Shown here piece after piece: positions 24,389 through 27,586 of a stretch of DNA of 64,000 nt. Numbering within the stretch: position 1 is the first letter of the stretch; each line of letters starts with the position of its first letter. The notes beneath the pieces are model-generated. The model was not told the origin of the DNA, did no database searches, and saw only the letters and a list, made by a program, of their open reading frames with translations. The translations under genes were made by a program, and so were the position numbers. Source of the stretch: Streptomyces armeniacus (GTDB taxonomy: Bacteria > Actinomycetota > Actinomycetes > Streptomycetales > Streptomycetaceae); NCBI RefSeq assembly GCF_003355155.1, contig NZ_CP031320.1, positions 2,703,881 to 2,767,880 of the forward strand. The letters run 5' to 3'.

Positions 24389-25546
24389 ATGCGGCGTACG
24401 GTGTTCAACGAGGACCACGAGGCGTTCCGCCGGACCATCCGTGACTTCATCGAGGCGGAGGTCGCGCCCCAGTACTCCCAGTGGGCCGAACAGGGCTTCG
24501 TGCCCCGCGAGTTCTACAAGAAGCTCGGCGAGCTGGGCGTCTTCGGCATCGAGGTGCCCGAGGAGTACGGCGGCGCGGGCGAGGCCAGCTTCAAGTTCAA
24601 CGCCGTGATCACCGAGGAGTGCGCGCGCGCCGGCGTGAGCTTCGGCGGCTCCAGCGTGCACACCGCGCTGTGCCTCCCGTACCTCCTCAAGTACGGCACC
24701 GAGGAGCAGAGGCGCCGCTGGTTGCCGTCCTTCGTCGCGGGCGAGCTGATGACCGCCATCGCGATGACCGAGCCCGGCGCCGGCTCCGACCTCGCGGGCA
24801 TGCAGACCACCGCGAAGCTGTCCGAGGACGGCACGCACTACGTCCTGAACGGCGCCAAGACCTTCATCACCGGCGGCGTCCAGGCCGACCGCGTGCTCGT
24901 GTGCTGCCGCACCTCCCCGCCCACCCCCGAGGACCGGCGCAGCGGCATCTCCATCCTCGTCGTGGACACCACGACCGAGGGCTACGCCGTCGGCCGCACG
25001 CTCGACAAGCTCGGGCTGAAGACGTCCGACACCGCCGAACTCTCCTTCACCGACGTCAAGGTGCCCGTCTCCGACCTCCTCGGCGAGGAGGGCAAGGCGT
25101 TCGGCTACCTCACGCACAACCTGCCGCAGGAGCGCCTCGGCATCGCCGTCAGCGCGTACGCGCAGGCGGCGGCGGCCGTACGGTTCGCGCACGAGTACGT
25201 CAAGGAGCGCACGGTGTTCGGCCGGGAGGTGGCGTCCTTCCAGAACACCAAGTTCGTGCTCGCCGACTGCCGTACGGACGTCGACGCGATGCAGGCTGTC
25301 GTCGACCGCGCGCTGGAGGCGCACGACGCGGGCGAGCTGACGGCGGCCGACGCCGCCTCGGCCAAGCTGTTCACGACCGAGACGGCGGCCCGCGTCATCG
25401 ACAAGTGCCTGCAGCTGCACGGCGGTTACGGCTACATGATGGAGTACCCCATCGCCCGCCTCTACGCGGACACCCGCGTCACCCGCATCTACGGCGGCAC
25501 CAGCGAGGTCATGCGCTCCATCGTGGCCAAGTCGATGGGGCTGTAA
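24389..25546 (+). CDS. Acyl-CoA dehydrogenase, second copy
   Basis: A 385-residue acyl-CoA dehydrogenase with MTEPGAGSDLAGMQTT, the QERLGIAVSAYAQA region and QLHGGYGYMMEYPIARLY near the end. It resembles the copy at 17525 in overall build but is not a close duplicate. It lies 89 bases after the TetR gene on the same strand and may share its control; the AAGCGCTT palindrome at 24307-24314 in the gap could be a separate site. GGAGG precedes ATG 24389. Substrate is unknown, plausibly a branched or short acyl-CoA. It ends 12 bases before the convergent erm gene. Confidence 0.88.
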   Translation: MRRTVFNEDHEAFRRTIRDFIEAEVAPQYSQWAEQGFVPREFYKKLGELGVFGIEVPEEYGGAGEASFKFNAVITEECARAGVSFGGSSVHTALCLPYLLKYGTEEQRRRWLPSFVAGELMTAIAMTEPGAGSDLAGMQTTAKLSEDGTHYVLNGAKTFITGGVQADRVLVCCRTSPPTPEDRRSGISILVVDTTTEGYAVGRTLDKLGLKTSDTAELSFTDVKVPVSDLLGEEGKAFGYLTHNLPQERLGIAVSAYAQAAAAVRFAHEYVKERTVFGREVASFQNTKFVLADCRTDVDAMQAVVDRALEAHDAGELTAADAASAKLFTTETAARVIDKCLQLHGGYGYMMEYPIARLYADTRVTRIYGGTSEVMRSIVAKSMGL

Positions 25547-25558
25547 CCGAACGCGGAG

Positions 25559-26323
25559 CTAGCCGGCCAGCTCCCGGAACAGCCGCAGCCACTGCTCCGG
25601 CGGCACCACGCCCACCGGCGCCGCCTCGTCCAGCCCCAGCCGCCCGAAGGCCGCCCGGACCCCGCGGGTCCGGTACCTCCGGGCGAGCGTGGCCGCGAGT
25701 GAGCCGCCGACGCCCGTGAAGCCGTGACCGACGAACTCGCGGTAGGCCGCGAGCCGTTCCGGGGGCAGCAGCGGCTCCGGGCGGCGTTCGAGACGGAGCA
25801 GCGCCGAGTCCGTACGCGGCACCGGTGTGAAGCACTCGCGGCCGATCCGGGTGAGCAGCCGCCACTCGTACTCCGGCCATGTCCGCACCGTCAGCAGCGA
25901 CCAGCGGCCGTAGCCGCCGGTGCGCTTGCGCGCGTACTCCAGCTGCGTCAGCAGCGTCGCCGAGGTCAGCCGCGGCGCGTCCAGGCACCAGCGGACGATG
26001 TCCGCGGTGCGCGCGTACGGGATGTTGCCCACCACCGCGAACGGCTCGCGCGGCGCACGTGCGCGCAGGAAGTCCCCGTGCACAGGGCGGACGTTGGGGT
26101 GCGAGCGGACGCGGGCCGGCAGCCGCGCGGCGAGGCGGGGGTCGATCTCGTACGCGATGACGCGGCGTACGCGGCCGGCCAGCGCGCGGGTGAGCACCCC
26201 TTCGCCCGCGCCCGGTTCGACGACCAGGGCGTCGGGGGGCAGCGCCGCCGAGCGCACGATGCGCTGGACGGCGGCGGGGTGGTGCAGGAAGTTCTGGGAA
26301 AGCGTCTTGCGGCGGCGTGCCAC
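25559..26323 (-). CDS. erm: Erm-family 23S rRNA adenine-N6-methyltransferase
   Basis: A 254-residue SAM-dependent rRNA methylase. The Erm hallmarks are SQNFLHHPAAVQRIV at the start, the SAM loop VVEPGAGEGVLTRALA, the acidic YEIDPRL motif, and VVGNIPYARTADIVRWCL with the catalytic N-I-P-Y; LLTQLEYARKRTGGYGRW is typical of actinomycete Erm rather than KsgA. It should methylate A2058 of 23S rRNA and give macrolide-lincosamide-streptogramin B resistance; mono- versus dimethylation (as for Lrm/Erm(O)) cannot be told. It begins at GTG 26323 with GAGGA upstream. The preceding 350 bases hold a leader ORF, hairpins and a WhiB7/WblC-like promoter, so induction by ribosome-blocking drugs is likely. Confidence 0.9.
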   Translation of the reverse strand: MARRRKTLSQNFLHHPAAVQRIVRSAALPPDALVVEPGAGEGVLTRALAGRVRRVIAYEIDPRLAARLPARVRSHPNVRPVHGDFLRARAPREPFAVVGNIPYARTADIVRWCLDAPRLTSATLLTQLEYARKRTGGYGRWSLLTVRTWPEYEWRLLTRIGRECFTPVPRTDSALLRLERRPEPLLPPERLAAYREFVGHGFTGVGGSLAATLARRYRTRGVRAAFGRLGLDEAAPVGVVPPEQWLRLFRELAG

Positions 26324-26342
26324 GGTGAGGTCCTCAGGTGGA

Positions 26343-26371
26343 GGACAGGCATGCGGAAGCGGGGCCTGTCC
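26343..26371 (-). promoter_or_regulatory. Hairpin just upstream of the erm ribosome site
   Basis: Perfect 8-bp arms GGACAGGC (26343-26350) and GCCTGTCC (26364-26371) with a 13-base loop, ending about seven bases before the erm GAGGA. Several more GC-rich stems can form between it and the leader ORF (for example CCCGCC/GGCGGG and GGCCG/CGGCC around 26446-26475). They could act as terminator or RBS-masking stems in attenuation. Confidence 0.5.
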
Positions 26372-26543
26372 GGGTCGGGAAGGGACACCGGAGGCCTGGG
26401 CACACGTGGGGACGCGTCGTCAGGTCATGAGAGTGAGCTCTGCACCCGCCGCGGGGCGGGGCCGTTCGCGGCCCGCGCCGGGCGGGGTCGCGGAAGGACG
26501 GGAGGTCCCGGCGGAAGCGGGAGTCCCGGGGCGCGCTGCGGAC

Positions 26544-26675
26544 TCAGACGCCGGAGGCGTCCTGGCGTACCAGGGCCTGGCGCCGACCGCGCGGGCGGTA
26601 GGTCAGAAGAAGGCATCGACCGCAGCGCCGCGCGTCAGCGCGGAAGCCGTCGGTGATCGCCGTGAATGCCGACAT
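26544..26675 (-). CDS. Leader ORF upstream of erm (43 codons)
   Basis: A short reading frame beginning MSAFTAITDGFRADARR and ending RQALVRQDASGV. It has no Shine-Dalgarno sequence, but a TACCGT -10 box ends exactly seven bases before its ATG, so it should be the first codon of a leaderless mRNA. It lies 220 bases before erm on the same strand, separated by stem-loops. Drug-stalled ribosomes on such a leader typically remodel the downstream RNA. It is too short to assign by homology and could be fortuitous, but the same promoter-leader layout precedes the MFS resistance gene at 44331. Confidence 0.6.
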   Translation of the reverse strand: MSAFTAITDGFRADARRCGRCLLLTYRPRGRRQALVRQDASGV

Positions 26676-26682
26676 GGGGAGG

Positions 26683-26720
26683 ACGGTAGAGCGGCGCGGC
26701 GCCGCCGGGCAAACGCTTTT
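26683..26720 (-). promoter_or_regulatory. WhiB7/WblC-like promoter of the erm leader
   Basis: On the minus strand: AAAA (26720-26717), four bases, TTGCCC -35 (26712-26707), an 18-base spacer, TACCGT -10 (26688-26683), then seven bases to the leader ATG. An A/T run just upstream of a TTG -35 is the known WhiB7 (WblC in Streptomyces) promoter mark, found upstream of ribosome-targeting drug-resistance genes. Reading by eye. Confidence 0.6.
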
Positions 26721-26779
26721 CTGCCCGGCCGCACGGGGCCGCTCGGGGCCGCACGGTCCGCTCCGGCGGCCCGGCGCGC

Positions 26780-27586
26780 TCAGTCGGCGCTGAGGTCCGC
26801 CGAGGCGAGGAGGTACGCGGTCATGGGCTCGTAGAAGCGCGGGTCGGTCACGTGGTCGTCCAGCGGGACGGCGACCGACAGGGTGCCCTCGGCCTCGCCG
26901 AGGAACAGCGCCGGGTCGTTGCAGTCGGCGAAGCCGACCGCGTCCACGCCGTGCTGCGCGGCGCAGCCGGCCCAGCCGTGGTCCGCGACGACGAGGTCCG
27001 GCAGCGGCTCCTCCGCCCGCTCGAACGCGTCGAGGATCTGCCGCATCGGCTCCGGCGAGTGCGTGTGCCACAGCGAGGCGCCGCGCTCGTACACCGCGAC
27101 CCCGCTGAACTGCACGACCACCCCGTCGTCCGGGTACAGCCCGAGCGGCGCCCGTACGATCTCGCAGCCCGCCAGCCGCAGCGCCAGCGCCAGCGTGCCG
27201 TGCATGTCCAGCAGCGCGCCGGGGTGGCCGGTCGCGAAGAGCACCCGCTTGCGGCTCTCGGCGGCCTTCCGCAGCTGCGCCGCCGCCCGGTCGAGCGCGC
27301 CGACGGTCAGGTCGGGGTCGATGGTGTCCTGGCCCTGCCGGTGGTCCGGGTCGTCGCTGACGCCGCAGCGCTCCGCCATCACGGCCAGTACGTCCTGCTC
27401 GTCCGTCCAGCGGTCACCCAGTTCCAGGCCGAGCCAGAAGTGCCGGTCGCCGTTCGCGAGCTTGCGGTAGTGGGAGAGGTTGTTCTCGCGGGGAGTGGCG
27501 ACGTCGCCGGCGATCCGGGTCCGTACGAGGTGCTCGATCAGCTCGGTCCGGGAGGGCGGGGCGGGCAATGGCAGTGGCAATGGCAT
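26780..27586 (-). CDS. Conserved actinobacterial protein (phosphatase-like annotation)
   Basis: A 268-residue soluble protein beginning [11 protein letters not shown] and containing [73 protein letters not shown] and [16 protein letters not shown] recall near-identical proteins beside agmatinase genes in Streptomyces, often labelled phosphatase, but I do not see a diagnostic catalytic motif and cannot confirm any activity. The first codons are a hexanucleotide Leu-Pro repeat, so the exact start is uncertain; no ribosome site is visible before ATG 27586. It is divergent from speB by 114 bases. Confidence 0.75.

Follow-up and report, generated by a model that had tools for sequence, protein, structure and literature searches.

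Introduction

Among the systems closest to the one described here, ErmDL has a short 14-residue Bacillus leader that is read with a Shine-Dalgarno sequence, and a published paper reportedly concerns the induction of ermSV, which we take to be Erm(V). During macrolide arrest at ErmDL, the middle residue of the R-L-R motif sits in the P site (PMC8298421). The more general +X+ motif is described as a macrolide arrest motif (PMC8298421, PMC6238534), and stalled Escherichia coli ribosomes protect mRNA up to +17 (PMC6238534). With regard to transcription, PMC7157823 describes the WblC promoter of Streptomyces coelicolor as GAAAWY located 3 bp upstream of TKGMNN, followed by a 16-19-bp spacer and TANNNT, places the majority of WblC-dependent starts 7-8 bp past the -10 element, and reports that the Erm(O)-type gene SCO6089 of that species is WblC-activated. 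Publications thus already cover +X+ leaders ahead of erm (PMC8298421) as well as an Erm(O)-type gene controlled by WblC (PMC7157823). A survey of about 250 bp upstream of erm genes postulated that their uORFs and palindromes are independent in origin, and described no universal pattern (PMC11264731).

A WblC-type promoter and a leader frame upstream of erm

The window, by which we mean the whole stretch of 64,000 nucleotides of the Streptomyces armeniacus chromosome that was analysed, carries an erm gene on its minus strand (Table 1). Upstream of this gene, and on the same strand, AAAA is followed after 4 nt by TTGCCC, after a further 18 nt by TACCGT, and after another 7 nt by the ATG of a 43-codon frame, whose TGA is separated from the GTG of erm by 220 nt. 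Every element that an earlier, sequence-only reading had claimed here is at its place. GAAAAG, 3 bp before TTGCCC, agrees with GAAAWY in five of six letters and departs from it in the last, and the arrangement of upstream element, 3-bp gap, -35, 18-bp spacer and -10 follows the S. coelicolor consensus. This match, together with the recurrence of the promoter in homologous erm loci, supports its proposed WblC/WhiB7 type. Because most WblC-dependent start sites sit 7-8 bp after the -10 element (PMC7157823), the transcript is presumed to start at or beside the leader ATG (about +1), and the 7-nt gap recurs in relatives, so that the leader is probably leaderless, as had been suggested.

Table 1. 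Coordinates of features at the erm locus of the window
Feature	Position	Strand	Remark
WblC/WhiB7-type upstream element, GAAAAG	26721-26716	minus	consensus from PMC7157823
AAAA	26720-26717	minus	followed by GCGT
-35, TTGCCC	26712-26707	minus	same layout precedes the WhiB7-like gene of this genome
Upstream element and -35 together	26707..26721	minus	
-10, TACCGT	26688-26683	minus	18 nt 3' of -35; CCTCCCC between -10 and ATG
Putatively leaderless 43-codon leader, MSAFTAITDGFRADARRCGRCLLLTYRPRGRRQALVRQDASGV, with stop	26544..26675	minus	ATG 26675-26673, TGA 26546-26544
R27-P28-R29 codons	26589..26597	minus	presumed macrolide arrest site (+X+ motif); overlapping R-G-R next
Possible arm a, GGCG	26581..26584	minus	could pair with CGCC 26567-26564; sequence inspection
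Box b, GGCCCTGG	26570..26577	minus	within Q-A-L-V codons; starts +17 from the P-site codon; conserved in relatives
Box c', TGTCC	26383..26387	minus	can pair with GGACA of box d; sequence inspection
Box d, GGACAGGC	26364..26371	minus	pairs with box e (8 bp) or c'
Box e, GCCTGTCCTC	26341..26350	minus	pairs with d (8 bp) or f (6 bp), not both
Box f, GAGGAC, erm Shine-Dalgarno	26330..26335	minus	6 nt before GTG
erm, Erm-type 23S rRNA methyltransferase, 254 aa	25559..26323	minus	GTG start 26323-26321

The encoded enzyme passes the NCBIfam model erm_SHROVE, which covers the ErmE/H/O/R family (NF000337; 356 bits, cut-off 320), and the broad Erm model NF000499 (262 bits, cut-off 212), and it also matches PF00398; its closest solved relative by sequence is 6nvm. 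It lies below the cut-offs of the Erm(V) (265 of 500 bits), Erm(O) (269 of 450 bits) and Erm(S) models. The genome, a single-contig chromosome of 8.08 Mb, contains one such gene, and a second Erm-homologous match, with 37% identity over residues 4-191, is presumably KsgA.

A strict version of the promoter pattern occurs at two sites in the 8.08-Mb genome, with none in the control. One site is that of the erm leader, and the other is located on the same strand roughly 0.5 kb ahead of where a WhiB-family frame of 142 aa begins; this frame has a C-terminal RPRGRPRK and ends in RPRGRPRKNPVVA (L147:1423-1851, minus). By the AT-hook criterion, we take this frame to be WblC/WhiB7. It is preceded, with the same promoter layout, by a leaderless 17-aa uORF, MERAGLLAPHFPCCTER (L139:1501-1548, minus). 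The strict pattern is rare yet not specific to erm, since 61 genomes of the genus yielded 23 rows (21 distinct sites) in 16 genomes, against 2 in the control.

Promoter and leader are conserved among erm loci

Homologues at E <= 1e-40 were present in 71 of 392 sampled genomes of the genus (own genome counted), and scanning species-representative genomes yielded 67 loci, with Nocardiopsis, Actinomadura, Streptosporangium, Herbidospora and Glycomyces providing many. Of the resulting 138 loci, 129 had an Erm that tblastn at 1e-20 could locate, and the set used for comparison comprises 120 loci with an Erm identity of at least 45%, after removal of three exact duplicates (L034, L038, L074). Two loci in one genome (G196) represent erm copies on different contigs (L137, L138) with identical leader peptides, and one erm homologue (G049:C1:8029813-8030505) contains an in-frame TAA and is probably decayed.

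A strict search for a WblC-type promoter, a start codon 6-8 nt after the -10 element and a frame of 18-60 codons ahead of erm found this layout in 87 of the 120 loci. The gap to the start codon is 7 nt in 80 of these, 6 nt in 4 and 8 nt in 3, and all 87 frames have [RK]x[RK] after residue 8. When upstream regions were Markov-resampled (2400 trials), promoter and leader together arose at a frequency of 0.000 (three decimals) and the promoter alone at 0.005; on the reverse strand, in a control window not exactly equal in length, the strict layout occurred in 0 of 120 loci. In three additional loci (L037, L015, L043) the leader stands behind a weaker promoter, which brings the number of leaders analysed to 90. 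The peptide core, for which R-x-R and A-L were required, was sought in the remaining 30 loci, and 11 of them share it: L010, three Streptosporangium loci (L046, L049, L066) and seven Streptomyces loci (L016, L027, L029, L030, L031, L099, L102). With these looser searches, the leader family totals 101 of 120 loci; a leader was not recognised in 19, among which L125 lacks upstream sequence. The leader frame is thus conserved among orthologous loci, as the sequence-only reading demanded.

Some members begin differently. The seven Streptomyces loci keep a WblC-type promoter, and their leader starts 64-67 nt after the -10 element behind a Shine-Dalgarno-like sequence, so it is not leaderless; its core, RRPRRGPGALxGPD, stayed while the way of starting changed. 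L017, L019, L021 and L023 have, upstream of erm, a CCAGGGC box and about 15 nt later GTCCAGG, as do L027 and its kin, and the core search recognised no leader frame in these four. In the three Streptosporangium loci, the leader starts 6 nt after TAACCT, and AAAA..TTGCGG lies only about 7 nt before TAACCT, compared with the normal 16-19 nt.

We assigned the 90 leaders to seven clades. Clade A holds 42 Erm(V)/Erm(O)-like leaders of Streptomyces, B holds 11 with that of the window among them, and C holds 9 others of Streptomyces. The 8 of clade D are from Nocardiopsis apart from one Glycomyces, the 14 of E are from Actinomadura apart from one Thermomonospora, and the 5 of F are from Herbidospora and Microtetraspora; G is a single Actinacidiphila leader. 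In a tree of 54 Erm proteins, hand-picked from the 120 loci, clades A, D and E are strongly supported and C more weakly, and B and F are not single groups. The clade labels change 9 times on this tree, where the minimum is 7 and the shuffled mean 36; such a small number of changes suggests that the leader family largely moved with the enzyme. The Glycomyces locus (L072), which falls inside Nocardiopsis, likely reflects a transfer.

The arrest motif and the codons that follow it

The motif R/K-x-R/K is present in all 90 leaders. With 40.6 expected for leaders so rich in Arg, finding the motif is by itself weak evidence. However, R/K-x-R/K followed four residues later by A-L occurs in 64 of the 90 leaders, where 0.5 are expected. 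These 64 belong to clades A (41), B (8), C (8) and E (7), with none in D, F or G. Their Leu codon is CTG in all 64 and their Ala codon GCC in 63, whereas the first Arg of the motif varies synonymously (CGG 37, CGC 10, CGT 9, AGG 8). It is as if the arrest motif were held as a peptide and A-L as RNA. The leader had been called arginine- and cysteine-rich; what is conserved is R-x-R, mostly with A-L, and cysteine is not a conserved feature. At the level of sequence, a short leader frame with a drug-arrest motif therefore precedes erm, with which it is presumably co-transcribed.

The A-L codons are complementary to a downstream box

The A-L codons, or the corresponding codons in clades D and F, form a box b that is complementary to a box c downstream of the leader. 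Typical b/c members are GCCCTGACCGG/CCGGTCAGGGC (or, with a wobble, CCGGTCGGGGC) in clade A, GGCCCTGG/CCAGGGCC in clades B and C, GCCTGGACCGG/CCGGTCCAGGC in clade D, GCCCTGGAC/GTCCAGGGC in clade E (in L048, GGCTCTGAAC/GTTCAGGGCC), GGGCTCTGG/CCAGGGCCC in clade F and GGCCCTGCGC/GCGCAGGGCC in L036. The window's box c is one G short.

Duplex energies between b and the downstream RNA barely beat those of shuffled sequence in any clade; the high GC content left them without discriminating power, and contiguous helices were used instead. The b:c helix beats all 40 downstream shuffles in 36 of 42 clade A loci, 3 of 8 in D, 3 of 14 in E and 1 of 9 in C, and in 0 of 11 clade B and 0 of 5 clade F loci; the window's own b has no helix better than with shuffled downstream sequence. 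Pairing of b with c in clade B thus rests on conservation and not on length. For the 42 clade A sequences, RNAalifold, unprompted, returned a structure that contains exactly the b:c helix.

A b:c register was possible in 81 of the 90 leaders (skipped were L001, which is the window, L004, L007, L041, L050, L058, L060, L067 and L080). Pairs form in 992 of 1296 cells, compared with 906 +/- 10 when boxes are re-paired among loci, and cells with double changes number 111, compared with 51 +/- 11; in both cases 0 of 500 permutations were as high. There are 37 pair types versus 31 (1 of 500 permutations). As complementarity was the basis for choosing the registers, and as the sequences share ancestry, these counts overstate independence, and independent compensatory events are few. 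Swapping boxes between clades gives a clearly worse fit for clades A and D, a marginal difference for E (24.7 with its native leaders, 24.5 with those of clade C), and no preference for the cognate partner in B, C and F, where the box is one and the same.

Box b mostly starts 16-18 nt downstream of the codon presumed to be in the P site. Of the 81 leaders in register, 67 have the core T of their Leu codon at +22 from that codon. Counted from the middle codon of R-x-R, b starts at +17/+18 in 42 of 42 clade A loci, at +16/+17 in 7 of 11 in B, at +15 to +17 in 9 of 9 in C and at +18 in 9 of 14 in E. Given the P-site placement of the middle residue (PMC8298421) and a ribosome edge at +17 (PMC6238534), a stalled ribosome would, in these main clades, end approximately where b begins. 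The classical model, in which the stalled ribosome covers b, was set aside, as b lies at or beyond the front edge of a ribosome at the first R-x-R in most A, B, C and E loci. By contrast, b starts at +13 to +15 in 7 of 8 loci of clade D and in all 5 of clade F, where a stalled ribosome may cover it partly; in the window, a stall at the second motif, R-G-R, would cover b. Arm a would fall beneath a ribosome stalled at R-P-R.

Two other clade A helices are only compatible with a switch: hairpin a:a', which holds b in its loop, shows no covariation though 94.8% of its cells are paired, and c:d shows little. In several clade B loci, the Q-D codons of the leader (CAGGAC, in VRQDA, 26544-26675) repeat the AGGAC of the erm Shine-Dalgarno and could be a decoy or an arm.

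Mutually exclusive helices at the Shine-Dalgarno sequence

The sequence-only reading had pointed to an exact 8-bp hairpin near the ribosome site. It is present, formed by GGACAGGC (26371-26364) and GCCTGTCC (26350-26343), and equals d:e; it does not hide that site itself, and instead competes with a smaller hairpin, e:f, that does. In clades B and C, boxes d (GGACAGGCC), e (GGCCTGTCCTC) and f (GAGGAC) are nearly invariant. Counting G-U pairs, e:f has 6-7 bp in all 20 loci of these clades and d:e has 8-11 bp in 19, the exception being L035 with 4 contiguous pairs. Both helices use the same GTCC, so they are mutually exclusive, and one of them hides the erm Shine-Dalgarno in these 20 loci. The distance between d and e ranges from 22 to 221 nt, and L043 has a matched change in d and e. 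In clade A, GTCTTCC forms an arm 5' of c and pairs with GGAAGAC, which immediately precedes the Shine-Dalgarno AAGGA; in the 12-pair helix tested, 86.8% of cells are paired.

These helices bear on whether the stalled ribosome might instead prevent a terminator, either intrinsic without a U-tract or Rho-dependent, from forming between leader and erm. The 220-nt GC-rich leader region does fold stably, the uORF of wblC is reported to work through transcription attenuation (PMC7157823), and the S. coelicolor tiaA and are5sc leaders can form terminator/anti-terminator folds (PMC12421871). Yet 26200-26800 contains 0 terminator-like sites with a U-tract, the last conserved helix takes in the Shine-Dalgarno itself in all 20 loci of clades B and C, and so variable a spacing between d and e is odd for a terminator. 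We consider transcription attenuation unlikely. Overall, the comparison of loci supports the earlier view of this layout as a putative drug-sensing attenuator, and of the two kinds that view allowed, transcriptional or translational, the translational one is favoured.

A further proposal, that the stalled ribosome acts mainly by stabilising the mRNA and not by freeing the erm start, draws on PMC5118997, where expression correlates with mRNA stability independently of ribosome stalling. It would leave the frozen A-L codons, box c and the exclusive d:e and e:f helices unexplained, and we regard it as very improbable.

Folding of the region, which had been recommended, revealed a stability that is mildly unusual only (380 nt, single sequence, z -2.59, 2 of 100 shuffles as stable), and Rfam gave no match at E <= 1 on 25500-27500. 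Equilibrium folding of 41 clade A loci preferred b:c to the Shine-Dalgarno hairpin in 6 when no ribosome was present and in 35 when one stood at the motif; the mean shift was -4.5 kcal/mol, with lower values in 41 of 41, and it was strongest at the +17 edge among 13 edges tried. In clades B and C (20 loci, including the window's own), the ribosome gave no shift (Wilcoxon p 0.62-0.87). In equilibrium folding, then, the Erm(V)/Erm(O)-like clade lends the switch support, and the clades of the window do not. Shine-Dalgarno accessibility, calculated for the 63 of 90 leaders with a recognisable erm start, was nearly flat with ribosome position: 0.38 at the stall versus 0.26-0.36 elsewhere in 40 clade A loci, and about 0.10 throughout in 23 others.

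The lack of a folding switch in the window's clade would fit control of erm by WblC alone, with the leader a translated but passive by-product of a far-upstream promoter, as would the WblC activation of the S. coelicolor Erm(O)-type gene (PMC7157823). Against it, several clades keep the arrest motif, its spacing to b and the partner in box c, and the core is retained in the seven Streptomyces loci where the frame starts 64-67 nt after the -10 element behind a Shine-Dalgarno-like sequence. Control by WblC alone seems to us distinctly improbable.

Proposed model

We think it probable that this intrinsic erm gene is under two-gate, drug-inducible control, in which transcription activated by WblC is combined with macrolide-dependent translational attenuation. 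At the first gate, suggested by the promoter match, ribosome stress would raise WblC, and the house-keeping polymerase would be recruited to the AAAA, -35 and -10 elements. The transcript would begin at the leader ATG, so that ribosomes would start directly on the leader. At the second gate, suggested by the conserved anatomy, the leader would be read through when no macrolide is present, e would pair with f, and erm would be little translated. With a macrolide, the ribosome would stall at R-P-R with its front edge (+17) right before b, and whatever held b would open. Box b could then pair with c, which would disturb the outer part of c:d (we infer this step from c to d); d would then pair with e, and the Shine-Dalgarno f would be freed.

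On a broader scale, we lean slightly towards the view that there is one ancient attenuator, i.e. that ErmE/H/O/R-type genes of actinobacteria carry a single leader family. According to this view, the family would have accompanied the enzyme across Streptomycetaceae, Nocardiopsidaceae, Thermomonosporaceae and Streptosporangiaceae. It would work as an AND gate, in which WblC governs transcription and arrest at R-x-R governs translation. The signal would be encoded in geometry: the codons that start at the end of the stalled ribosome would double as an arm of the RNA switch, with Ala-Leu kept as RNA and R-x-R as peptide.

Comparison with known systems

The leader of the window had not been recognised among published erm leaders. 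It is not entirely unlike them: its core matches that of the leaders which precede genes of the Erm(V) and Erm(O) types, to which it appears distantly akin. These leaders, too, have a WblC-type promoter, a start mostly 7 nt after the -10 element, R-x-R-4-A-L and boxes b and c. They differ in that the peptide reads like V-A-A-F-N-A-I...R-M-R-R-G-P-G-A-L-T-G-P-G, b:c has 11 bp, and the Shine-Dalgarno hairpin is GTCTTCC:GGAAGAC, with no d or e boxes; moreover, the window's Erm scores far below both cut-offs, and its leader region has two extra segments. Of the clade A enzymes tested, that of L103 passes the Erm(V) model (539 bits, cut-off 500) and that of L110 the Erm(O) model (496, cut-off 450), while the other four are below both.

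Attenuators of the ErmDL type likewise have an Arg-X-Arg arrest motif ahead of erm, and ErmDL arrests with macrolides or ketolides (PMC8298421), but they have no WblC promoter and we saw no shared sequence. The uORF of wblC/whiB7 in this genome shares promoter layout and leaderless start with the erm leader; unlike it, the 17-aa peptide lacks the R-x-R...A-L core, and the uORF is published as transcription attenuation (PMC7157823).

Among the matches listed in the open-licence literature, we found no description of a shared actinobacterial leader family, of its leaderless start or of the b/c geometry. Of the 90 leaders, 55 start over 250 nt away from erm, among them 18 of the 20 from clades B and C, and are thus beyond the reach of the survey of about 250 bp (PMC11264731). 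One leader family, following the Erm tree for the most part, would contrast with the independent origins postulated there. It would also join two levels of control that are usually studied apart, WblC and drug-arrest leaders, in a leader where the arrest motif and the RNA arm lend themselves to independent testing.
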